In this document: positions 42,148-54,019 of the stretch, piece by piece | Numbering within the stretch: the first letter of the stretch is position 1 | Layout: the number at the start of each line of letters is the position of its first letter | Source of the DNA: Pseudomonas frederiksbergensis | Lineage (GTDB): Bacteria > Pseudomonadota > Gammaproteobacteria > Pseudomonadales > Pseudomonadaceae | Direction: 5' to 3' | Length of the DNA: 64,000 bases | Assembly: GCF_017114915.1 (NCBI RefSeq) | Contig: NZ_JAAUOE010000006.1 | Span: 62,001-126,000 of the forward strand | Made by a program: the position numbers and the translations under genes | The notes under the pieces: model-generated | Told to the model about the DNA's origin: nothing | Seen by the model: only the letters and a program-made list of their open reading frames with translations | The model's database searches: none

Positions 42148-43626
42148 ATGAACAGCTTCAGAAATATACACAGCGACACGGTGCTGCGGTTCGGGCCCTA
42201 CGCATTCCACCTGCATCAGCGGCTGATCCTGGAGGGGGATCGACCGCTGCGCATGGGTGGGCGGGCCCTGGATATTTTGCAGATGCTGGTCGAACACGCC
42301 GGTGCGGTGGTCAGCAAAGAGGCGTTGATTGCCCGCGTCTGGCCGACCTCGGTGGTCGAGGAAATCAACCTGCGCGTACACATCGCCGCCCTGCGTCGGG
42401 CACTTGGCGATATGCCGAACGGGCACCCCTATATCGTTAATATTCCCCAGCGAGGTTATAGCTTCATCGCCCCGGTGCAGCACGACCGTACGGGCACGCC
42501 GGTGCTGGTCGAAACCTTGCACAAGCCGCAACACAACCTGCCTGCGCGACTCACACCGGTGACCGGTCGCGATTCGATCGTCGGCAGCGTGGTCCGGCAG
42601 TTACCGGTTCGACGCTTCATGACCCTGGTCGGCCCCGCCGGCATCGGCAAGACCACCGTGGCGTTACGCGTGGCCGAATTGCTGTTGCAGCACTATCGGG
42701 ATGGCGTCTGGATGGTTGATCTGGCGGCCATCGACGACCCGTCGCAGCTTGTCGATCATCTGTCGTGCACGCTGGAACTGGACGTCGGCGCAAAGGCACT
42801 GGCGCAACGACACGCCTTGGTGGTGCTCGACAATTGCGAACACCTGCTTGAACGTTGTCGGACAGTGGTCGAGGGTCTGCTGGCCTCGGCGCCTCGCTTG
42901 TCGATCCTCGCCACCAGTCGCGAACCGCTACGAGCGGCAACGGAAACGCTGCTGCGGTTACCAGCCCTGACGGTGCCACCCGCCTCGGCGATTTATAGCG
43001 TGGCCGAAGCCATGGGCTATTCAGCGGTGCAGCTGCTGATCAGCCGCGCCCGAGCCCGTCAGCAAGGGTTTGCCCTGCGCCAACAGGATCTCAATGCCGT
43101 GCGCGAAATCTGTCGACGGCTCGATGGCCTGCCCCTGGCCATTGAGCTGGCGGCGGCGCAGATCGATGCGCTGGCGCTGGTGGGGGTGCAAGCGCAACTC
43201 GGCAACTGTTTTCAACTGTTGAGCCAAGGTCGACGCACCGCCGTGCCACGGCATCAGAGTCTCAAGGCTGCGCTGGACTGGAGCTATGAACGGCTGAGCC
43301 CGTTGGAGCAGATCGTGTTGCAGCGCTTGGCGGTGTTCAAGATGGCGTTCACCCTGGACGCGGCGATTGGCGTGATCAGTGGCGCGATGCTGCTGCCCGC
43401 AAGCCTGGTCAACGTGGTGGAGAGTCTGGCGAATAAATCGCTTTTGTCAGTGGAGCAGGGCAGCGGCGTGACCCGCTACCGTTTCCTCAATACCACGCGC
43501 ACCTACGCCCTGGAGAAACTCGAACGCAGCGGTTACTTGCGCGCCTTCGAACTGCGTTATGAGCGCTACACCAGTCGGTCCTTCTGGGCATCAGGCGGGC
43601 AGGTCGCGCTGCAACTCGTCGAGTAA
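42148..43626 (+). CDS. winged-helix / STAND ATPase regulator, short form
   Basis: This 492-aa protein has an N-terminal OmpR/PhoB-type winged-helix DNA-binding domain (about 10-108, ending QRGYSFIAPV). A STAND/NB-ARC-like ATPase follows, with Walker A GPAGIGKTT at 162-170, Walker B ALVVLDN at 223-229 and sensor ATSREPL. The similarity to its neighbour (43591-46395, minus) is collinear to about residue 473. The last 12 codons, including the stop, are antisense to the neighbour's 3' end, and the TPR-like C-terminal half is missing. No strong Shine-Dalgarno is seen. It is probably a shortened regulator whose sensor part is lost. Confidence 0.85.
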   Translation: MNSFRNIHSDTVLRFGPYAFHLHQRLILEGDRPLRMGGRALDILQMLVEHAGAVVSKEALIARVWPTSVVEEINLRVHIAALRRALGDMPNGHPYIVNIPQRGYSFIAPVQHDRTGTPVLVETLHKPQHNLPARLTPVTGRDSIVGSVVRQLPVRRFMTLVGPAGIGKTTVALRVAELLLQHYRDGVWMVDLAAIDDPSQLVDHLSCTLELDVGAKALAQRHALVVLDNCEHLLERCRTVVEGLLASAPRLSILATSREPLRAATETLLRLPALTVPPASAIYSVAEAMGYSAVQLLISRARARQQGFALRQQDLNAVREICRRLDGLPLAIELAAAQIDALALVGVQAQLGNCFQLLSQGRRTAVPRHQSLKAALDWSYERLSPLEQIVLQRLAVFKMAFTLDAAIGVISGAMLLPASLVNVVESLANKSLLSVEQGSGVTRYRFLNTTRTYALEKLERSGYLRAFELRYERYTSRSFWASGGQVALQLVE

Positions 43627-46395
43627 CCGCCGGACTTTGATCAGGTCCGGTGTGGCGAAGCCTTCGGTGAAACGCTGGTAAATCGGCGCCAGCAGCTCAT
43701 GGGCTTGCCGGAAGTGGCCCTGACGCTGCCATAGCTGGGCCAGTGATGTGGCGCTGCGCAGTTCCCAGGCCAGCGCTCCCTGTTTTTTTGCTACGGTCAA
43801 AGCCTTGAGCAGCACCGCCTCGGCCGCGCCAACGCTGCCCGGGCAATCCTCTGCCAGTAACGCGTCTGCCCCGGCCCGCAGAATCTCCGCCGTGCTCCAG
43901 CCCGCGGCGCCGTTTTCGACCCGCTCCAGCAACGCATCATCGATGAAACGGCTGTCCAGTGTGACCATGATTTCCTTGATCAACCCGGTGTCTGGTCGCG
44001 GGGGCGAGGGGGTATCGGCAACGTCGATCACCTGCGCGTAATGTTTGGCCCACTTATAGAACAGCAGCACCGAATGTTTCTTCGCCTGCTCAAGCAGCAA
44101 GGCCAGGAGCTCGCGGGCGAGCGGGGTGTCGCCGTTGTAGTGGGCGATCAGGCAGCCGGACAGCGCCAGGGTGTAGCAGATGGACGTGCCATGATTGATC
44201 TGCATCGCGATGTCGAGTGCCTGTCGCGCGGTGTGCCAGGCTTTTTCCGGGTGCCCTTGCAACCAGAGAATGCGCGCCAGAATCGTCAGGGCCGCCACGC
44301 TCTGGTCGTACTGCACGCCAAAGCCATGGGTGAAACGGTTGAGGTGGCCGCACTGGGCCAGGCGTTGAATGACCTGTTCGGCGTTCTCCCGCGCCAGTGG
44401 CTGATCGCCGGCAAAGTGCAGGGCCAGAACCCGCAAGCGCTGGGTGCTGAGGGCTGTCACTGCGTCGTCGTGCGGCCTCAACCGCTCGAATTGTAGGCTC
44501 TGCTCCAGGGCCAGTTGGTAGTGGCCGCGACTGAGATCAACCGCCAGGTGTCCGGAAATCGCTTTGAGCTGACCGGCCACATCGTTGCAGAGTTCGGCCA
44601 GGTGTCTGGCGCTGACGAACGCTTCGACGGCTTCGGCGCTGCTGCCCAGGGTGTGGTAGCAGCAACTGCCGAGGGCGAGCATGAGGGCCATGGTCAAACG
44701 CGGGCAGGGCGGGCGTATCGCTTCGTCCAACGCCAGGGCTTTGCGCACGTACTGGCCGTGTTCCTTGAGCAGCGACAACTCTTGCCAGAGCGGTGCCGAG
44801 GTCGCGGTGAGGCGGATGGCCAACCCTTGCGACCCTTGCGCATTCAAGCCCCAATCGAGCGCCGCACGAATGTCTTCCAGGCTGCGGGCGTAACGCTCGG
44901 TCCAGCGTTCGCTCGGGGTGTGGTCCCAGTCACTCTGCGCCTGCTGCATCAAGGCCAGGCAGCGTTCGGCGTGACGCTCGCGGGTGTCCGCCAGCTCCTG
45001 GGCCTGATCGAGTTTTTCCAGTGCATAGCTACGTGTGGTGTCGAGCAGACGGTAGAACACTTCTTCGTCGCCGACTTCCACGTTCAGCAATGACTTGGCC
45101 ACCAATTGGGTAATAGAGGCAAGCACCACGTCGGGCTCGACGTGCTGGCCGACAATCACGGCGGCTGCCGACTCCAGGGTAAACCCGCCCCGGAACACCC
45201 CCAATCGGCGCAGGCAGGTTTGCTCGCAGGCATTGAGCAGTTCGAAGCTCCAGTCCAGTGTGGCGCGCAGGGTCTGATGGCGGCCCAGGGTCGTCGGGCA
45301 ACCCTGGGTGAGCAGACGAAAACTGCCTTGCAGTTGCGACAGCAAGCCACTCAAGCCCAGGTTGCCCACTTGCGCCGCTGCCAGTTCGATCGCCAGCGGT
45401 ATGCCGTCCAGGCGACGGCAGATTTCAATCGCCAGCGGCAGTTCGGCTTCGCTCAGTTCAAAGCTGTCATGGCTGGCCATCGCCCGCTCGACAAACAATT
45501 GCAGCGCCGAAAACGTCAGGGCCTGAGCGCGGTCGAGCACGGCGACGGGCGGCGGGCAGTCCAGCGATTCCAGGCGCTGCACGCATTCGCCTTCGGCCCG
45601 CAGGCTCTCGCGGCTGGTGGCCAGAATGTGCACCTGGGGCGCCGCGCGCAGGATACTTTCGCTGAGCAACGCAATGGCATCGATCAGGTGTTCGCAGTTG
45701 TCGATGACCAGCAGCATCTGTCGTTCGCGCAAGCATGTGGCGAGCCCGTTCATGGGGTCGGCGTCATGCAACGACAAGCCCAGCGCTGTCGCCAAGTGCG
45801 CGCCGATCATCAAAGGGCAGTTGATCGGTGCCAGGTCCACCAGGCGAATGCCGTCTCGATAGCGACCGATCAGTTGCTCGGCGACGCGCAGCGCCACGGT
45901 CGTCTTGCCGATCCCGCCGGGGCCCACGAGGGTGATGAAACGTTGCTGTGAGAGTTGCGCCAGCAGTCTGTCGACCAGGGCCTGACGGCCGATCATGCGA
46001 GTCCGGCGCACCGGCAGGTTATGGCCGCCTGGTTCATTAGCGTCGTTTTGGGGGCGTTGTTCGATGGATTCCAGGGAAAATGGCGCGACAAAACTGTAGC
46101 CGCGTTGGGCGACGGTGATGATGTAACGCTGACCGGCCTGACCGTCACCGAGGGCTTTGCGCAGTGCTGCCATGTGCACGCGCAGATTGATGTCTTCCAC
46201 CACGCTTTTGGGCCAGACCCGCGCGATCAGTTGTTGTTTGCTCACCACCTGGCCTGCGTGCTCCAGCAGGACCAACAGAATGTCCATGGCTTGCCTGCCC
46301 AGGCGCAGGGGCTGGTCGGCCTCCATCACCAGGCGTTGTCCGGGGTAGATCCGGTAGGGGCCGAAACGGATGGCCTGTTCGGGGGTAAGGGTCAA
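43591..46395 (-). CDS. winged-helix / STAND ATPase regulator, full length
   Basis: This 934-aa protein has an OmpR-type winged helix (about 8-106), a NB-ARC-like ATPase (Walker A GPGGIGKTT at 158-166, Walker B MLLVIDNCEHL, ATSRESL) and a long helical, TPR-like C-terminal region (about 470-930) that probably senses a signal or partner. This is the LuxR/AfsR-like STAND class. The start is a TTG at 46395 with AGGAG 8 nt upstream and no in-frame ATG nearby. It faces a shorter paralogue and is divergent from the WrbA-like gene. Confidence 0.88.
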   Translation of the reverse strand: MTLTPEQAIRFGPYRIYPGQRLVMEADQPLRLGRQAMDILLVLLEHAGQVVSKQQLIARVWPKSVVEDINLRVHMAALRKALGDGQAGQRYIITVAQRGYSFVAPFSLESIEQRPQNDANEPGGHNLPVRRTRMIGRQALVDRLLAQLSQQRFITLVGPGGIGKTTVALRVAEQLIGRYRDGIRLVDLAPINCPLMIGAHLATALGLSLHDADPMNGLATCLRERQMLLVIDNCEHLIDAIALLSESILRAAPQVHILATSRESLRAEGECVQRLESLDCPPPVAVLDRAQALTFSALQLFVERAMASHDSFELSEAELPLAIEICRRLDGIPLAIELAAAQVGNLGLSGLLSQLQGSFRLLTQGCPTTLGRHQTLRATLDWSFELLNACEQTCLRRLGVFRGGFTLESAAAVIVGQHVEPDVVLASITQLVAKSLLNVEVGDEEVFYRLLDTTRSYALEKLDQAQELADTRERHAERCLALMQQAQSDWDHTPSERWTERYARSLEDIRAALDWGLNAQGSQGLAIRLTATSAPLWQELSLLKEHGQYVRKALALDEAIRPPCPRLTMALMLALGSCCYHTLGSSAEAVEAFVSARHLAELCNDVAGQLKAISGHLAVDLSRGHYQLALEQSLQFERLRPHDDAVTALSTQRLRVLALHFAGDQPLARENAEQVIQRLAQCGHLNRFTHGFGVQYDQSVAALTILARILWLQGHPEKAWHTARQALDIAMQINHGTSICYTLALSGCLIAHYNGDTPLARELLALLLEQAKKHSVLLFYKWAKHYAQVIDVADTPSPPRPDTGLIKEIMVTLDSRFIDDALLERVENGAAGWSTAEILRAGADALLAEDCPGSVGAAEAVLLKALTVAKKQGALAWELRSATSLAQLWQRQGHFRQAHELLAPIYQRFTEGFATPDLIKVRRLLDELQRDLPA

Positions 46396-46738
46396 CGGGT
46401 CACTCCTGCTTGCATCCTTCTATCACGCGGTATCCAGGCATATTCCTGAGGTTTTTTCGGTAGCGCAACGTGGCGTCATACATCTCGACAGCAGGTACAA
46501 CGGCTGCGGCCTTGCCGTCAGTGCCCGGCGGTCCCGTATTTATTGGACTCAGCGCCGGTGAACGGCACGCCGGGGCCATGGGTGTACGGCAGAAAATTAA
46601 CAACGTTTAACTCGTACCGATCCGGTCTACGCTCAAAAATCCATTTCTTCAAGTAGCCGAAGGTATCGGCCTTTTTGCAACAGAAAGTGCAACAAAAAGC
46701 GTGCCGCAAAAAGGACGAACACTTCTGGAGGAACCGGA
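46396..46738. other. divergent intergenic region (STAND regulator / WrbA-like gene)
   Basis: This 343-bp gap has no supported gene. It contains the 20-bp operator candidate at 46595-46614, a CAAAAAT block 19 nt further on (46634-46640), and a good ribosome-binding site (TGGAGGA) for the WrbA-like gene. Confidence 0.6.
46595..46614 (+). promoter_or_regulatory. shared 20-bp operator candidate, site 1
   Basis: AATTAACAACGTTTAACTCG occurs here and, inverted, at 48774-48793. It contains an imperfect dyad (TTAAC-AAC-GTTTAA) with the T-N11-A spacing usual for LysR-type regulators. Its right end is 125 nt before the WrbA-like ATG. It is AT-rich in a GC-rich region. Confidence 0.6.
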
Positions 46739-47314
46739 ATGAGCAACGTGGTGGTGGTCTATCACAGCGGTTACGGGCACACCCGGGTCATGGCCGAAGC
46801 TGTGGGCCTGGGGGTGGAACGGCACCTGGGTAGCACCTGTCGGCTGATTCCGGTGGAGGACGTGGACGACCACTGGGAGCGCTTGCACCTTGCTGATGCA
46901 ATCATCTTCGGCGCCCCCACCTACATGGGCAGCGCTTCGGCAGCCTTCAAGGGCTTCATGGAGGCCACCGCCTCTTTCTACCTGGCCCAGCCCTGGCGCG
47001 ACAAGCTCGCTGCCGGGTTTACCAACTCCGGTTGCCTGTGTGGCGACAAGCTCAACACCTTGCTGCAGATGGCGGTGTTCGCCGCCCAACACTCGATGAT
47101 TTGGGTCGGCCTCGACCTGCTGCCAGCGCGCAGCAGCGTCGGCCTGTTCGACGGGCAGTTGAACCGACTCGGCAGTTCGCTGGGGGCGATGGCCCAATCG
47201 AACGTCGAACAATCCCCCGAATTTGCTCCGCCCCTGGAAGACCGCCGCACCGCCGCACATTTGGGCGAGCGGGTCGCGCGCCTGGCCGAACGCCTGGCTC
47301 AAACCTCTTGTTAA
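46739..47314 (+). CDS. WrbA-like flavodoxin-fold NAD(P)H:quinone oxidoreductase
   Basis: This 191-aa flavodoxin-fold protein has the FMN phosphate loop [15 protein letters not shown] at the N-terminus and [20 protein letters not shown], typical of the WrbA family. It probably performs two-electron quinone reduction. It is somewhat divergent from canonical WrbA in the second half. It is followed 32 bp later by an alpha/beta hydrolase, probably co-transcribed. The putative operator lies 125 nt upstream. Confidence 0.87.
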
Positions 47315-47346
47315 TCGTCGTAAACCCATGCATCAGGAGAATCGTA

Positions 47347-48171
47347 ATGAGCACCTTTACCACCCGTGACGGCACCGAGATTTACTACAAGGACTGGGGC
47401 ACCGGTCAGCCGATCGTCTTCAGCCACGGCTGGCCATTGAACGCCGACAGTTGGGAATCGCAGATGATCTTCCTGGCCTCCCAAGGCTACCGGGTCATCG
47501 CCCACGACCGCCGTGGTCACGGTCGTTCGAGCCAGCCATGGTTCGGCAATGACATGGACACCTACGCCGATGACCTGGCGCAGTTGATCGAGCATCTGGA
47601 TCTGCAAAACGCCGTGCTGTTCGGCTTCTCCACCGGCGGCGGCGAGGTGGCGCGTTACATCGGTCGCCACGGCACCGGTCGCGTGGCCAAGGCCGGGCTG
47701 ATTTCCGCGGTGCCGCCGCAGATGCTCAAGACCGAAGCCAACCCCGGTGGCTTGCCGATGGAAGTGTTCGACGGTATTCGTCAGGCGTCCTTGGTCGACC
47801 GTTCGCAACTGTACAAGGATCTGGCCAGCGGTCCGTTCTTCGGTTTCAACCGGCCGGGTGCCAAACCGTCCCAAGGCATGATCGACTGGTTCTGGCTGCA
47901 GGGCATGGCTTCCGGTCATAAGAACGCGTACGACTGCATCAAGGCGTTCTCTGAAACCGACTTCACCGAAGACCTGAAGAAGTTCGACGTGCCGACCCTC
48001 GTGGTGCATGGCGACGACGACCAGGTGGTGCCGATCGAAGCGGCGGGCATCGCCTCGGCGAAACTGGTCAAGGGCTCTACGTTGAAAGTCTACCCAGGAG
48101 CCCCGCACGGCCTGACCGATACCCACAAGGATCAACTCAACGAAGATCTGCTGGCGTTCATCAAGGCCTGA
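47347..48171 (+). CDS. alpha/beta hydrolase (non-haem chloroperoxidase/arylesterase type)
   Basis: This 274-aa alpha/beta hydrolase resembles cofactor-free haloperoxidases and P. fluorescens aryl esterase. The oxyanion segment is [11 protein letters not shown], the nucleophile elbow [12 protein letters not shown], the acid Asp lies in [10 protein letters not shown] and the catalytic His in [11 protein letters not shown]. The ATG at 47347 follows AGGAGAATCGTA; the longer frame back to 47032 overlaps the flavoprotein gene and is not used. It probably acts with the preceding quinone reductase in detoxification, which is inferred. Confidence 0.92.
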
Positions 48172-48183
48172 TCAAAATCAAAG

Positions 48184-48217
48184 GCGCCTACAGGGTTATG
48201 TGAACACCTGTAGGCGC
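48184..48217. terminator. hairpin at convergent gene ends
   Basis: An 11-bp perfect stem GCGCCTACAGG/CCTGTAGGCGC with a 12-nt loop starts 13 bp after the hydrolase stop and overlaps the last codons of the AraC-type gene. It lacks a T run but could hinder read-through on both strands. Confidence 0.5.
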
Positions 48218-48652
48218 TGGCGAAGGCTGCGATCTTTTGCTGTTGAGAGAGGGAAGCGTACGCATGGCGCGGCAACGCCAGGCAAACGGTGTGATGCCTT
48301 CGCTGCGGGTAAAAATATGAGAGAAATGCGCCTGATCGCAGAAGCCGCATTCCAGGCTGATTTGCGTCAGGGTCAGGTCGGTGTTGCGGATCAACTGTTT
48401 GGCCCGGGCGATGCGTTGCTGTCGGATCCAGTCCTGCGGTGAAGCACCGATGCTGCACTTGAACGCACGGGAAAAATGACTGCGCGACAGGGCACAGGCC
48501 CGTGCCAGTTCGGTCACTTCCAGGGGGGCACCGAGGTTATCGAGGATCAACTGCTTGACCAGGGTTTCACGCCAGGGACTCAGACCGCCCGTGGCTTTTT
48601 TTCGTGTTTCAGTGGCACGCGCACTGATCGCGGTTTGCTGAAAATGAGCCAT
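48188..48652 (-). CDS. AraC family transcriptional regulator (DNA-binding domain only)
   Basis: This 154-aa protein consists almost only of an AraC/XylS double helix-turn-helix domain (about 30-130; LSRSHFSRAFKCSIGASPQDWIRQQRI, then ECGFCDQAHFSHIF), without a ligand-binding domain, so it resembles SoxS/MarA in layout. The ATG at 48652 (MAHFQQTAIS) is chosen; an in-frame start at 48694 is possible. It converges with the hydrolase gene. The 20-bp operator candidate lies 122 nt upstream. Confidence 0.85.
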   Translation of the reverse strand: MAHFQQTAISARATETRKKATGGLSPWRETLVKQLILDNLGAPLEVTELARACALSRSHFSRAFKCSIGASPQDWIRQQRIARAKQLIRNTDLTLTQISLECGFCDQAHFSHIFTRSEGITPFAWRCRAMRTLPSLNSKRSQPSPAPTGVHITL

Positions 48653-49051
48653 GGCCAATGTCCGTGTCAATGGGCGCGCGCGGTTGCGCTGCACGGTGGG
48701 TCAGCACATTCCTTTGTCTAAAAAACAAGTCTGTGCAGAAGGCTTCATTTTTGGTCGCGAGGGCTTTGGCTTGCGAGTTAAACGTTGTTAATTCCGCAGT
48801 CAGGCTTAAGGGTAAAAATGCGCCAACTGAGCACATCGCTTCAATTCGCACTGACGCACGGTCATGTAAGATTGACGACGCGTAGCGGGCTGGGCAGGGG
48901 CGCCTTTTCTGGCTTGATCAAGGGTGATCTCCTTGGCCAAGGCACCGGCCGGTGCCAGGGAATTCTTCAAAATCGCCCTGGACTCCACCGCGCCATCGAG
49001 TAAAGTCCGACAGACCTCGCGCCTGCTGAACACAAAAAGGGAACCGCGCCC
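48653..49051. other. divergent intergenic region (AraC-type / LysR-type genes)
   Basis: This 399-bp gap without a supported gene contains operator site 2 (48774-48793) and an ATTTTTG block (48747-48753) that mirrors the CAAAAAT block after site 1. The remainder shows no clear structure. Confidence 0.55.
48774..48793 (-). promoter_or_regulatory. shared 20-bp operator candidate, site 2
   Basis: This is the exact reverse complement of 46595-46614. Read on the minus strand it points toward the AraC-type gene and ends 122 nt before its ATG, almost the same spacing as site 1 has to the WrbA-like gene. The LysR gene starts about 260 bp away on the other side. Confidence 0.6.
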
Positions 49052-49975
49052 ATGAACCGTAACGATCTACGCCGCGTCGACATGAACCTGCTGGTGATTT
49101 TCGAAGCCCTGATGTTCGAAAAAAACCTGACCCGCGTCGCCGAAAAACTGTTCATGGGCCAACCGGCGGTGAGCGCCGCGCTGGGGCGGCTGCGTGATCT
49201 GTTCGACGATCCGTTGTTGCTGCGCAACGGTCGCGGCATGGAGCCGACGGCGCGTGCGCTGGCGATTCTCAAGGAGCTGCAACCGGCGATGGACACCATC
49301 TCCGGCGCGGTCAGCCGGGCCAAGGAGTTCGACCCGGCCAGCAGTTGCGACGTGTTCCGCATCGGGTTGTCGGACGATGCCGAGTTCGGTCTGTTTCCGC
49401 CGTTGCTGCGCCAGTTGCAGGAAGAGGCGCCGGGGATCGTGGTCGTGGTGCGCCGCGCCAATTACCTGTTGATGCCGGCGTTACTGGCGTCGGGAGAAAT
49501 CTCGGTGGGGGTGAGCTACACCACCGACCTGCCGGCCAATGCCAAGCGCAAGAAGCTGCGCGACATCCCCTGCAAAGTCCTGCGCGGCGATGACCGCCCG
49601 GGGCCGTTGACGCTGGACGAATACTGCGCCCGTCCGCATGCGATGGTGTCGTTCTCCGGTGATCTGAGCGGCAACATCGACCTGGATCTGGCCAAGGTCG
49701 GTCGCACCCGCCGCGTGGTGCTGGGCGTACCGCAATTCAGTGGCTTGCGCGCGCTGCTTGCCGGTACCGAGATGATCGCCACCGTGCCGGATTACGCCGC
49801 GTGCGCGTTGGTTGAGGGGTGTGGGTTGCGCGCCGAAGATCCGCCGTTTCCCATCGACGCCGCGCAACTGTCGATGGCCTGGAGCGGGGTGCACGACAAC
49901 GATCCTGCCGAGAAATGGCTGCGGTCGCGGATCAGTCAATTCATGTCCGAACCCTTGAAAATACCGGCACCGTAG
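49052..49975 (+). CDS. LysR family transcriptional regulator
   Basis: This 307-aa LysR-type regulator has an N-terminal winged helix (VDMNLLVIFEALMFEKNLTRVAEKL, QPAVSAALGRLRDLFDDPLLLRNGRGMEPT) of the NodD/NahR-like branch and a substrate-binding domain from about residue 95. The ATG at 49052 has AAGGGAA upstream. It is divergent from the AraC-type gene, whose upstream region carries a LysR-compatible site. It is the best candidate reader of that site; the ligand is unknown. Confidence 0.92.
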   Translation: MNRNDLRRVDMNLLVIFEALMFEKNLTRVAEKLFMGQPAVSAALGRLRDLFDDPLLLRNGRGMEPTARALAILKELQPAMDTISGAVSRAKEFDPASSCDVFRIGLSDDAEFGLFPPLLRQLQEEAPGIVVVVRRANYLLMPALLASGEISVGVSYTTDLPANAKRKKLRDIPCKVLRGDDRPGPLTLDEYCARPHAMVSFSGDLSGNIDLDLAKVGRTRRVVLGVPQFSGLRALLAGTEMIATVPDYAACALVEGCGLRAEDPPFPIDAAQLSMAWSGVHDNDPAEKWLRSRISQFMSEPLKIPAP

Positions 49976-50040: not shown

Positions 50041-50340
50041 CGTTGCCTACGATTGCGCCAGAATCCGCCGGCTTGTGTGCCTTGGGGGCGGGCTCTATCG
50101 TTTGCCGGTCGCTGACGAATCAGCGATCGGATTTAGCGACCCGAACCTTTGTAGGCGCAACAGCGCTCCAAACCCTCTTGCAGATTGTTCATGTCTGCGA
50201 TTGATGTCATGGCGGCTGTGCGCGGGAGACCTTCGGGTCTGCCGGGCGCCTACACTCGGTTCGCTAACCTGCGTGCAGCCGCCACCCTTACCTGTTTAGC
50301 GACAGGTCTTGGTGGCTCCATTTCTTGTAGGAGTTTCACC
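50041..50340 (+). promoter_or_regulatory. structured leader upstream of DUF6124-type gene
   Basis: About 300 nt with several hairpins: TCGCTG/CAGCGA (50109-50126), AGACC-TTCG-GGTCT (about 50228-50241) and CCTGT/ACAGG within 50291-50306, enclosed by CCACC/GGTGG. TTTAGCGAC occurs twice (50132-50140, 50295-50303). From 50191 the frame is open and in phase with the downstream gene for 50 codons. From memory, similar leaders precede related genes in other Pseudomonas; this was not checked. It could be a cis-acting RNA or a leader peptide region. Confidence 0.5.
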
Positions 50341-50721
50341 ATGTTCAAGGTCACACCTAACCCGCCCCAAACCGACGATGTTTCCCCCTACGATCCCCTC
50401 GATCCCAAAAAACTCAACGAAGCCGCCGAACGCGCCCTCGATCACTACCTCAAACCGTCCGACCCCGACGGCGCCAAACAGCCCCCGCGCAAACCGAGCA
50501 CGATTTACACCGTCGCCCCCAACATCGACATCGAAGAGTTACTGGCCAATGCCTGCGAGTCCTTTGCCTCGGCCAAGGTGATCGCCAGTGACTGCGCCGG
50601 GTTTCTGGAAGGGCCGCAGCGCAATACGATCCTGGGCGTCGCGCAGCTCATCATGTTCGGTGAATTGGCGGTGAATCGGGCGCTGGATAGTCTGGAGCTG
50701 AAGGCCGACCCGGCCCTGTAA
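50341..50721 (+). CDS. DUF6124-type small protein
   Basis: This 126-aa soluble protein begins MFKVTPNPP and contains AAERALDHYLKPSDPDG and NIDIEELLANACESFASAKVIASDCAGFLEG, the pattern I associate with the Pseudomonas DUF6124/DUF3077-type family of unknown function. It has no signal peptide or membrane segment. The ATG at 50341 has TAGGAG 8 nt upstream. The in-phase leader frame would add about 50 residues, but the ribosome-binding site argues for 50341. Confidence 0.8.
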   Translation: MFKVTPNPPQTDDVSPYDPLDPKKLNEAAERALDHYLKPSDPDGAKQPPRKPSTIYTVAPNIDIEELLANACESFASAKVIASDCAGFLEGPQRNTILGVAQLIMFGELAVNRALDSLELKADPAL

Positions 50722-50858: not shown

Positions 50859-51099
50859 AACACTCACGACTGCTGCGCAGCCGAACGCAGCCTCGCAAGC
50901 TCGACAGCTGCTACAGATTGCATTACGGCTTAAGTGAACAGTATTACCCCGTGGCGAGGGGCAAACTCTCTTGCCACAACGGGTCTTACGGGGGGCGTTG
51001 AGCCTAAGCTCTTCGTACCGCAAAGAGAGCACGTACATTCAATTTTTCCCCACCCCTTGGCGGCACTATTCAAGCCAATGATTGAACAGGGGGGCGGCC

Positions 51100-51516
51100 A
51101 TGAATGCTTCGCAACGCAATGAACAGGCGCAAAGCCTCGGTTTGCTGTTTCTGCGGGTCACCGGCAGCGTGTTCCTGCTGTGGGTGCATGGCTTGCCCAA
51201 GCTGCTGGACTTCAATGCGCAGTTGCAACTGATCGAAGACCCGTTCCACCTCGGTGCCCACCTCACGCTGATCCTGGCGATTTTCGCCGAAGTCCTGTGC
51301 CCGCTGTTGATCGTCGCCGGTGTCCTGGCGCGGTTGGCGTGCTTGCCTATTCTGTTTGTGCTGCTGGTGGCGCTGCTGGTGGTTCATCCGCAATGGAGTG
51401 TGGCCGAAGGGCAGTTCGGCTGGCTGTTGTTGATCATCTTCACCTCTGTGTTTATCGCCGGCCCCGGACGGCTGGCGCTCAATGTTCGTTTGCCCGGAGT
51501 GCTCCGTTATGTCTGA
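51100..51516 (+). CDS. DoxX family membrane protein
   Basis: This 138-aa DoxX-type inner-membrane protein has four hydrophobic helices (about 12-32, 54-75, 78-98, 106-126). Members are often linked to quinone or thiosulfate redox partners, but the function here is unknown. The ATG at 51100 (MNASQRNEQA) follows a G-rich site. It overlaps the next gene by 8 bp and is the first gene of a four-gene operon. Confidence 0.85.
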   Translation: MNASQRNEQAQSLGLLFLRVTGSVFLLWVHGLPKLLDFNAQLQLIEDPFHLGAHLTLILAIFAEVLCPLLIVAGVLARLACLPILFVLLVALLVVHPQWSVAEGQFGWLLLIIFTSVFIAGPGRLALNVRLPGVLRYV

Positions 51517-52135
51517 AGCCCAAACTCAAAAAGCGCCGGGGTCCGATGAGATCGTGACGCTGATCGTCAAGCACCGGGTCAAGGCCGGTTTCGAAGCGGC
51601 CTATGAAGCCTGGTTGCGCAACATCGTCAGCGTAGCGGGGCGCATGGAAGGACATCTGGGCGTGGACGTGATCCGTGGCAAGAACGGTGGCCTGGACATG
51701 TTCACCTGCGTGCTGCGCTTTTGCTCCACCGAGGCCATGCAGCGCTGGCTCGATTCGCAGCAACGTCAGGCGTTGATCGATGAAGCCGCGCCGATGCTGG
51801 CCGACGGCGATCAGACCGAGGTCAACCCGGTCAACGAATTCTGGTTCGCGCCGCTGGCCGATGCCGCCTCGCCACCGCCGCGCTGGAAGCAGGCCGTGCT
51901 GTCGTTGCTGGTGATTCTGCCGCACACCTTGCTGGTGCCGCTGCTCTGGGGGCCGCTGCTAAAACTCAACGCTTTTCTCTCCAACTACCTGGTCGCCACG
52001 TTCCTGATCACCGTGACCATCGTGGTGTCGGTGGTGTACGTGTGCATGCCGGCCGCGACTCGCTTGTTTGCGCCGTGGCTGGCGCCCAGTCAGCCACGGG
52101 AACACCTCGAATCCAACGCAAATTCGCCGCGCTGA
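51509..52135 (+). CDS. antibiotic biosynthesis monooxygenase-like protein with membrane tail
   Basis: This 208-aa protein has an N-terminal ABM (dimeric alpha/beta barrel) domain (about 15-115; TLIVKHRVKAGFEAAYEAWL, GVDVIRGK). Two hydrophobic helices follow in the C-terminal part (about 135-155 and 165-190), so the enzyme-like domain is membrane-tethered. The ATG at 51509 has GGAG upstream and overlaps the DoxX gene; the longer frame is not supported. The reaction is unknown. Confidence 0.85.
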   Translation: MSEAQTQKAPGSDEIVTLIVKHRVKAGFEAAYEAWLRNIVSVAGRMEGHLGVDVIRGKNGGLDMFTCVLRFCSTEAMQRWLDSQQRQALIDEAAPMLADGDQTEVNPVNEFWFAPLADAASPPPRWKQAVLSLLVILPHTLLVPLLWGPLLKLNAFLSNYLVATFLITVTIVVSVVYVCMPAATRLFAPWLAPSQPREHLESNANSPR

Positions 52136-52180
52136 GCTGGCGCTTATTTGCTTCATTTCACTGATGACGAAGGAACTGCG

Positions 52181-54019
52181 ATGAACGCCGATCTGATTCT
52201 GTTCAATGGCCAATTTCATACCGTAGACCGCGAAAAACCCCTCGCCAGCGCCGTGGCGATCAGCGATGGCCGCTTCGTCGCGGTCGGCACCGACGCCGAG
52301 GCCATGGCCCTGCGCGGCTCGGGCACCCAGGTGATCGACCTCAAGGGCCGTTGCGTCATCCCTGGCCTCAACGACTCGCACTTGCACCTGATCCGTGGCG
52401 GCTTGAACTACAACCTCGAACTGCGCTGGGAAGGCGTGCCGTCCCTGGCCGATGCGTTGCGCATGCTCAAGGAGCAAGCCGACCGCACGCCGACGCCGCA
52501 GTGGGTGAGGGTGGTCGGTGGCTGGAACGAATTCCAGTTTGCCGAGAAGCGCATGCCGACCCTGGAAGAACTCAACCAGGCGGCGCCCGATACGCCGGTG
52601 TTCGTGCTGCATTTGTACGACCGCGCCTTGCTCAACCGCGCCGCATTGCGGGTTGTCGGTTACACCCGCGACACGCCGAACCCGCCGGGTGGCGAAATCG
52701 TGCGTGATGCCAACGGCAACCCAACCGGCATGTTGGTGGCGCGGCCGAACGCGATGATTTTGTACTCGACCCTCGCCAAGGGGCCGAAGCTGCCGCTGGA
52801 ATATCAGGTCAACTCGACCCGCCAGTTCATGCGCGAACTCAACCGTCTCGGCCTGACCAGCGCCATTGATGCCGGCGGTGGTTTCCAGAATTACCCGGAC
52901 GATTACCAGGTGATCGAGCAGTTGGCGAAAGATGACCAACTGACCGTGCGCATCGCCTACAACCTGTTTACCCAGAAGCCAAAAGAAGAGCTGACCGACT
53001 TCAAGAACTGGACCGGCAGCGTCAAGCTGCATCAGGGCGACGACTTCCTGCGGCACAACGGCGCCGGCGAGATGCTGGTGTTCTCGGCGGCGGACTTCGA
53101 GGACTTCCTCGAACCACGTCCAGACCTGCCGCAGACCATGGAACAGGAGCTGGAGCCGGTGGTGCGCCATCTGGTGGAACAGCGCTGGCCGTTCCGTTTG
53201 CACGCCACTTACAACGAATCGATCAGCCGCATGCTCGACGTGTTCGAGAAGGTCAACCGCGATATTCCGTTCAACGGTTTGCCATGGTTCTTCGACCACG
53301 CCGAAACCATCACCCCGCAGAACATCGAGCGGGTGAGGGCGCTGGGCGGTGGCATTGCGATCCAGGACCGCATGGCGTTCCAGGGTGAATATTTTGTCGA
53401 CCGCTACGGCAAGCAGGCCGCCGAATCTACGCCACCGATCAAGCGCATGCTGGCCGAGGGTGTACCGGTCGGCGCCGGCACCGATGCCACGCGAGTGTCC
53501 AGCTACAATCCATGGACCTCGCTGTACTGGATGGTCAGCGGTCGTACCGTCGGCGGTCTGGCGCTGTACGAGGAAGGCTTGCCGCGCACCACTGCACTGG
53601 AGCTGTTCACCCACGGCAGCGCCTGGTTCTCGTCGGAGCAGGGCAAGAAAGGCCAGATCAAGGTCGGGCAACTGGCGGACCTGGCAGCACTGAGCGCGGA
53701 CTTTTTCAGCGTCGAGGAAGAAGCCATCAAGTGGATCGAGTCGGTACTGACCGTGGTCGGCGGCAAGGTGGTGTACGCCGCCGGCGACTTCGAAAAACTC
53801 GGGCCTGTCAGCCTGCCGGTGCTGCCGGACTGGTCGCCGGTGGCGAAGGTTCCGGGACACTGGCGGCCGAACGCGCCGATGCAGGCGCAGGTTCACCAGT
53901 GCAGCGGCCCGTGCACCGTGCATACCCACAGCCATGAGAAGGCCCGTATGTCGAACGTGCCGGTGAGTGACTTCGCCGGTTTCTGGGGCGCCTTCGGCTG
54001 TTCCTGCTTCGCGTTCTGA
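52181..54019 (+). CDS. amidohydrolase family protein (YtcJ-like)
   Basis: This 612-aa metal-dependent hydrolase is of the amidohydrolase-3/YtcJ group, which includes N-substituted formamide deformylases. Metal ligands are His67 and His69 in DSHLHL, later His residues in FRLHATYN and FFDHAETI, and an Asp in GAGTDAT. The C-terminus carries an unusual Cys/His-rich tail (CSGPCTVHTHSH, then FGCSCFAF). The ATG at 52181 has AAGGA upstream. The substrate is unknown; an amide or formamide is possible given the family. Confidence 0.9.
   Translation: MNADLILFNGQFHTVDREKPLASAVAISDGRFVAVGTDAEAMALRGSGTQVIDLKGRCVIPGLNDSHLHLIRGGLNYNLELRWEGVPSLADALRMLKEQADRTPTPQWVRVVGGWNEFQFAEKRMPTLEELNQAAPDTPVFVLHLYDRALLNRAALRVVGYTRDTPNPPGGEIVRDANGNPTGMLVARPNAMILYSTLAKGPKLPLEYQVNSTRQFMRELNRLGLTSAIDAGGGFQNYPDDYQVIEQLAKDDQLTVRIAYNLFTQKPKEELTDFKNWTGSVKLHQGDDFLRHNGAGEMLVFSAADFEDFLEPRPDLPQTMEQELEPVVRHLVEQRWPFRLHATYNESISRMLDVFEKVNRDIPFNGLPWFFDHAETITPQNIERVRALGGGIAIQDRMAFQGEYFVDRYGKQAAESTPPIKRMLAEGVPVGAGTDATRVSSYNPWTSLYWMVSGRTVGGLALYEEGLPRTTALELFTHGSAWFSSEQGKKGQIKVGQLADLAALSADFFSVEEEAIKWIESVLTVVGGKVVYAAGDFEKLGPVSLPVLPDWSPVAKVPGHWRPNAPMQAQVHQCSGPCTVHTHSHEKARMSNVPVSDFAGFWGAFGCSCFAF

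Follow-up and report, generated by a model that had tools for sequence, protein, structure and literature searches.

MalT-type STAND activators join an ATPase and a TPR-like sensor half to a C-terminal helix-turn-helix (HTH) of the LuxR type, while the marbox read by MarA and SoxS is a 20-bp asymmetric box in the class II position. OmpR is described as binding two tandem 10-bp half-sites within 20 bp (PMC7380067). Streptomyces AfsR, a large SARP acting at the afs box, is the closest described architecture that we found for the protein discussed here; it is reported to be a one-component activator with an OmpR-type winged helix, a BTA domain, a STAND/NOD ATPase and a TPR sensor, and to bind two 11-bp direct repeats near -35 of a poor promoter, in a box centred at -29.5 (PMC10936776). 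Here, we analysed a 64,000-nucleotide (nt) stretch of Pseudomonas frederiksbergensis (contig NZ_JAAUOE010000006.1, positions 62,001 to 126,000; the whole stretch is called the window) in which a 20-bp box occurs in two identical copies, one upstream of the gene pair wrbA-cpo and one upstream of an araC-type gene. We consider it probable, from comparative sequence evidence, that the box is the operator of WSR1, a one-component regulator encoded beside it that would activate wrbA-cpo and araC. The open-access literature that was searched gave nothing relevant on the 20-mer, its core variants or the WSR1 regulator class, for which Streptomyces papers came up instead, and no ligand or operator for Pseudomonas winged-helix/STAND-ATPase regulators of the WSR1 kind. 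The features of the locus, with the two transcription units wrbA-cpo and araC facing each other, are as follows.

46595-46614 (+): box 1, AATTAACAACGTTTAACTCG, upstream of wrbA-cpo, in the region divergent from WSR1

48774-48793 (-): box 2, the identical 20-mer AATTAACAACGTTTAACTCG, upstream of araC, between the divergent genes araC and lysR

46634-46640 (+): CAAAAAT, likely -10 element of the wrbA-cpo promoter, 19 nt after box 1

48747-48753 (-): CAAAAAT, likely -10 element of the araC promoter, 20 nt after box 2

43591-46395 (-): WSR1, regulator of 934 amino acids and proposed reader of the box (Pfam, Foldseek on an AlphaFold2 (AF2) model, co-occurrence)

42148-43626 (+): WSR2, half-length paralogue of 492 amino acids with winged helix and STAND ATPase (Pfam), a possible co-reader

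46739-47314 (+): wrbA, WrbA-like flavodoxin-fold NAD(P)H:quinone oxidoreductase, below the NCBIfam WrbA cut-offs

47347-48171 (+): cpo, alpha/beta hydrolase of the chloroperoxidase F type (cofactor-free haloperoxidase/perhydrolase family; PDB 1a8s)

48188-48652 (-): araC, solitary AraC-type HTH protein of 154 amino acids, the second target

49052-49975 (+): lysR, LysR-type regulator, not the reader on present evidence

The first-pass annotation of this DNA had reported the perfect 20-bp match, and both copies were confirmed. Its distances to the start codons also held, with 124 nt between the end of box 1 (46614) and the wrbA ATG (46739) and 121 nt between the edge of box 2 (48774) and the araC ATG (48652), as did the CAAAAAT block that it had seen 19-20 nt downstream of each copy. 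The genome-wide search that it had proposed returned only these two copies in 5.9 Mb, even at up to three mismatches, and 100 dinucleotide shuffles of the window gave zero matches to the 20-mer at that tolerance. The conserved core of the box is a direct repeat, TTAAC-N5-TTAAC, with a period of 10 bp, which occurs twice in the genome, both times within the two boxes.

We searched 298 sampled Pseudomonas genomes for the 20-mer at up to three mismatches and found it in 143; the reversed pattern, searched in the same way, matched 21 of 298 (a count made from the results table). After de-duplication, sites in the fetched loci were classed by the gene downstream (65 wrbA, 115 araC, 29 cpo, 1 lysR and 27 with none of these). 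A set of 207 sites with wrbA, cpo or araC downstream was compiled at the same mismatch limit, leaving out the 27 unclassified sites, the single lysR-class site and both cpo-class sites from genomes G114 and G237; 151 of these sites are identical, and there are 8 variants in total. Within the site, mean information per position was 1.96 bits for the wrbA class, 1.95 for araC, 1.85 for cpo and 1.69 for unclassified sites, figures that are somewhat raised by the three-mismatch cut through which the sites were selected. The corresponding values were 0.64, 0.25, 0.32 and 0.17 bits over the 40 bases upstream, and 1.0, 0.78, 0.75 and 0.41 bits over the 40 bases downstream. A -10-like CAARAAT follows the box after 19-20 nt at 65/65 wrbA sites and 98/115 araC sites. 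If it is taken as the -10 element, the centre of the box would lie near -43, close to the class II activator position. Overall, the box holds about 38 bits over the 207 sites, a figure inflated by shared ancestry and the mismatch cut, and 29.6 bits over the 8 distinct variants, compared with the roughly 22.5 bits needed to mark two places in a genome.

By this conservation, the 20-mer behaves as an operator. The claim of a shared operator-like element pointing toward each gene of a small regulon (WrbA-like quinone reductase, hydrolase, AraC regulator) is supported, and the refutation test named with it went the same way, the site being conserved upstream of orthologues and not scattered over unrelated places in the 298 genomes. 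Two perfect copies in inverted orientation, separated by about 2.2 kb, might also be the terminal repeats of a mobile or invertible element, or a chance match. However, the box is near-invariant in 143 genomes, its flanks differ between the copies while each is conserved within its own promoter class, the spacing to the -10 block is fixed, and the copies lie far apart in several genomes (e.g. G125, G267, G268). This explanation was already refuted by the conservation and retains almost no probability.

The occurrence of the site follows that of WSR1. At E<=1e-150, both were present in 137 of the 298 genomes and both absent from 155, while WSR1 alone was found in 0 and the site alone in 6 (phi 0.96); scoring in this search covered two first-look candidates per genome, and WSR1 may, to the detriment of the count, have been missed in some genomes counted as lacking it. 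In seven genomes the search for WSR1 was repeated with all candidates scored. The six site-only genomes are G093 and G118, G042 and G166, and G114 and G237. The three-mismatch sites of G093 and G118, which have broken cores and lie in genomes without WSR1, were counted as chance because the reversed control matched 21 genomes. Among 80 loci found through AraC, the start of WSR1 was present in 74. Where wrbA and/or cpo is retained as well (62 loci), the partner site has 0-1 mismatch in 61 and 2 mismatches in one; in the remaining 12, with WSR1 and neither target gene, it is absent from 7, degraded to 2-3 mismatches in 3 and perfect in 2. Site and WSR1 start codon are 95-274 nt apart (median 219; 63 loci). 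Further, in 28 of 104 fetched loci that hold both genes (a few of which are the same genome fetched twice), araC and WSR1 lie on the same strand less than 300 nt apart, an arrangement that would place WSR1 under its own box.

The first-pass annotation had named the adjacent LysR or the AraC protein as the reader. Neither proved necessary or sufficient, and the site instead tracks WSR1, which that annotation had not mentioned. An AraC reader would autoregulate araC and activate wrbA-cpo in the manner of MarA and SoxS at the marbox, and the box does suit a protein of this type, as it is likewise a 20-bp asymmetric element with a solitary AraC protein encoded beside it, and its two parts lie upstream of -35 at a distance of one turn from each other. 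An AraC relative (E<=1e-40, 12 candidates scored per genome) was found in 116 of the 143 site-bearing genomes, and in 9 of the 11 loci from other genera described below a more distant AraC lies downstream of the box. Nonetheless, 27 genomes have the site only and 12 AraC only (neither: 143), so that site and AraC disagree in 39/298 genomes compared with 6/298 for site and WSR1. This pattern argues against AraC being the general reader of the present box, unlike the case of the marbox. Moreover, 19 genomes hold a site with 0-1 mismatch together with WSR1 and no AraC at E<=1e-30; among the loci taken from genomes that lack AraC, a site next to WSR1 with no AraC nearby is perfect in 4 and carries one mismatch in 8, and the cpo-side box is divergent from WSR1 in all except G114. 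Conversely, the 12 AraC-only loci, some of which may carry AraC paralogues, have no intact core, the best showing mismatches at 2 of 10 core positions. We therefore regard reading of the box by AraC as unlikely.

In case of the LysR-type protein (49052), the gene is divergent from araC with box 2 in between, which is the classical arrangement, and the T-N11-A spacing to which the first-pass annotation had drawn attention is literally present (T3...A15), although it is not diagnostic in an AT-rich direct repeat. The core is a direct repeat and not a dyad. At least 16 genomes that lack the site have a LysR match at least 82% identical, and six such loci from genomes without WSR1 had no intact core, their best site match showing at least 6 mismatches. 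At E<=1e-120, LysR was found in 293/298 genomes, paralogues included. In nine genomes with site and WSR1, LysR is matched only at the E level common to almost all genomes; among these, G286 has a broken lysR in place (locus L098), and G273 is a draft of 1,200 contigs. In two loci (L147, L162), the 8 kb fetched contain WSR1, cpo and a perfect site but no LysR and no AraC, and in G114 and G237 LysR is intact while the sites are mutated. Taken together, a LysR reader is very improbable.

G114 and G237 also allow a comparison in which the regulator is missing. WSR1 was not found in either genome at E<=1e-30 with all candidates scored, and no trace of either WSR1 or WSR2 was found in the 14 kb around the locus. 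Identity is 97% for LysR and 96% for cpo, with cpo intact in both; wrbA and araC are truncated in G237, while in G114 wrbA was not found and the AraC match is only 28%. A TTAAC half-site is mutated in 3 of the 4 sites of these genomes vs 0 of the 207 target-linked sites elsewhere (Fisher 2.6e-6). Core changes were seen at 6 of the 26 left-out sites that lie outside G114 and G237 (L024, L033, L165, L166, L173, L174). Those of L165, L166, L173 and L174 look like chance matches.

The box core can be followed beyond the genus. At E<=1e-150, WSR1 was found in 12/329 genomes of the phylum and 17/119 of the family, sets that overlap and in which members of the same genus are counted. In two other genera of the family, whose WSR1 is about 48-56% identical, exactly one TTAAC-N5-TTAAC is present in each of 11/11 loci, and these loci (4.4-5.8 kb fetched each, 60.5 kb in all) contain zero cores with any other spacer from 0 to 15 and zero reversed cores. 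Spacer and outer bases of the box are variable there. Because the core alone persists while the rest varies, the recognition code would be the 10-bp direct repeat, and a LysR-like dyad was ruled out as the structure of the box since only the direct repeat is conserved. In five more distant loci with a WSR1-like protein of 36-42% identity, the core is intact in one (L224), just beyond the end of the WSR1-like gene, and not intact in four.

Residues 28-102 of WSR1 form a winged helix of the OmpR/PhoB/CadC type (Pfam Trans_reg_C, E 8e-18), with CadC, PhoB and KdpE as best PDB sequence matches. A STAND ATPase begins at about residue 133-149 (AAA_22 31.1 bits, cut-off 27; NB-ARC 26.2 bits, cut-off 23.5) and has a conserved P-loop, GPGG-I-GKT, at 158-165. 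No BTA family and no receiver domain are among the Pfam matches. The C-terminal half is modelled by AF2 as helical repeats with good predicted local distance difference test (pLDDT) scores, and the Pfam scan gives no TPR family in it; a Foldseek search with this model returned the TPR-containing STAND protein 6mfv as top match and MalT domain III as a further one, both at low TM-scores. Across 23 aligned sequences the likely recognition helix hardly varies, and this presumed helix is nearly the same in WSR1 and WSR2 (NLRVH[MI]AALR[KR]).

Compared with the systems introduced above, WSR1 shares with AfsR the N-terminal OmpR-type winged helix and the STAND ATPase, but no BTA match was found in WSR1, and instead of 11-bp repeats centred at -29.5 the box has a period of 10 bp and a probable centre near -43. 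The targets, chloroperoxidase and quinone reductase, also set it apart. On this analysis, we would call WSR1 AfsR-like in outline, with two defining features of AfsR lacking. Similar to the OmpR/PhoB response regulators, WSR1 has a winged helix of the same family and a probable 20-bp tandem direct-repeat operator of the kind reported for OmpR, whereas it carries a STAND ATPase and a putative TPR-like half in place of a receiver domain, which was not found. Like MalT, it has an ATPase and a putative TPR-like sensor half, but its winged helix is N-terminal whereas the HTH of MalT is C-terminal.

The near identity of the helices brings in a further candidate, namely WSR2 or a WSR1-WSR2 pair as reader. 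In G042 and G166, only a WSR2-type gene is present and the sites are core-intact, and the information in the box beyond what two sites need could mean two readers. On the other hand, 7 of the 11 other-genus loci show no second family member in the fetched stretch and yet have an intact core, and the draft genome G286 has one family match at E<=1e-100 and a site. We hold WSR2, alone or paired, to be a rather remote candidate. In the window, WSR2 and WSR1 are convergent and their open reading frames (ORFs) overlap at 43591-43626.

Several observations weigh against WSR1 as the reader. The sampled genomes are related species, so the agreement in 137/137 does not amount to 137 independent events. 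The core alone is not rarer in the genome than its reversed control, which occurs 4 times vs 2. The WSR1-negative G042 and G166 hold their core-intact site near the WSR2-type gene, and where WSR1 is present WSR2 nearly always accompanies it. A perfect site is kept beside WSR1 in L041 and L076 despite the lack of wrbA and cpo, and the CAARAAT-like block follows only 7/29 cpo-class and 12/27 unclassified sites. Over the winged helix, the quality of the AF2 model is too low (pLDDT <40) for modelling DNA contacts. Further, the decay in G114 and G237 may come from their damaged target genes, though cpo is intact. L024 and L033 have WSR1, no wrbA or cpo, and yet a mutated core, which means that site decay can follow loss of the targets as well as loss of the reader. 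As the decay comparison has this second explanation, our confidence in WSR1 was slightly lowered.

With WSR1 as the reader, the following sequence of events can be proposed. A signal would trigger the sensor half and cause WSR1 to oligomerise, so that two winged helices would come to lie next to each other, each on one of the two TTAAC half-sites, which are separated by one helical turn (10 bp). Bound WSR1 would in turn bring RNA polymerase to a promoter whose -10 is weak and which lacks a good -35. The comparison shows the site and its conservation, the direct repeat in its core, the geometry of the promoters, the co-occurrence with WSR1 and the mutated cores of genomes that lack WSR1, whereas physical binding by WSR1, activation rather than repression, and control by ATP or a ligand are inferred from sequence. 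The targets in this genome would be wrbA together with chloroperoxidase F, and araC; in relatives, a box before the araC-WSR1 pair would give self-activation, and a box before an OprD-like porin would make the porin a target.

The genes behind the box vary among relatives, where target names were assigned by reading translations. The box precedes OprD-like porins (e.g. L143, L148, L152, L155, L157, L160, L168), an amidohydrolase (L150, L178), a monooxygenase-like protein (L167), another alpha/beta hydrolase (L164, L229) or a LysR gene (L175). The box of L175 is a third one, AATTAACAACGGTTAACTCG (G211 contig 24, position 4001, minus strand), 66 nt upstream of a different LysR-type gene, and G211 has the usual two boxes too. 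In the araC-lysR neighbourhood of L250, L252 and L254, from genomes without WSR1, a recurring sequence with weak similarity to the box, such as CATTCAGAACGTTTAATACT, lies near an AraC of about 50% identity and the LysR orthologue, and may be an operator that another regulator reads. The window itself carries DoxX-like, monooxygenase-like and amidohydrolase ORFs at 51082-54019, which are box-free here; the amidohydrolase of L150 and L178 and the monooxygenase-like protein of L167, box-linked beside WSR1, resemble homologues of this cluster. Another feature of the window (50050-50720) is a long leader ahead of a short ORF (MFKVTPNPPQTDD...), which we take to resemble a multi-copy gene family of fluorescens-group Pseudomonas.

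As a wider and tentative reading, WSR1 may found an AfsR-like, BTA-less class of STAND regulators in Pseudomonas with the DNA code TTAAC-N5-TTAAC, in which operator and regulator would stay fixed while the targets change from species to species (chloroperoxidase F/WrbA, AraC, OprD-like porin, amidohydrolase, monooxygenase-like protein, other alpha/beta hydrolase), and the excess conservation of the box might reflect two readers, e.g. WSR1 and WSR2. The cpo product has 1a8s as its best PDB match (585 bits, E 2e-175, residues 2-273), which amounts to full-length homology. Chloroperoxidase F is placed in the metal-free haloperoxidase/perhydrolase group, whose nature is debated (PMC6864650), and chloroperoxidase transcripts are mentioned for wheat soils in a study that has no bearing on the box (PMC5945926). 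With the box as its probable operator, a regulator of the WSR1 kind would gain a sharp DNA code, a minimal regulon and a natural comparison in genomes that have lost the regulator. Further, a candidate regulator is hereby proposed for chloroperoxidase F, and the trigger of WSR1 would reveal the purpose of this enzyme.

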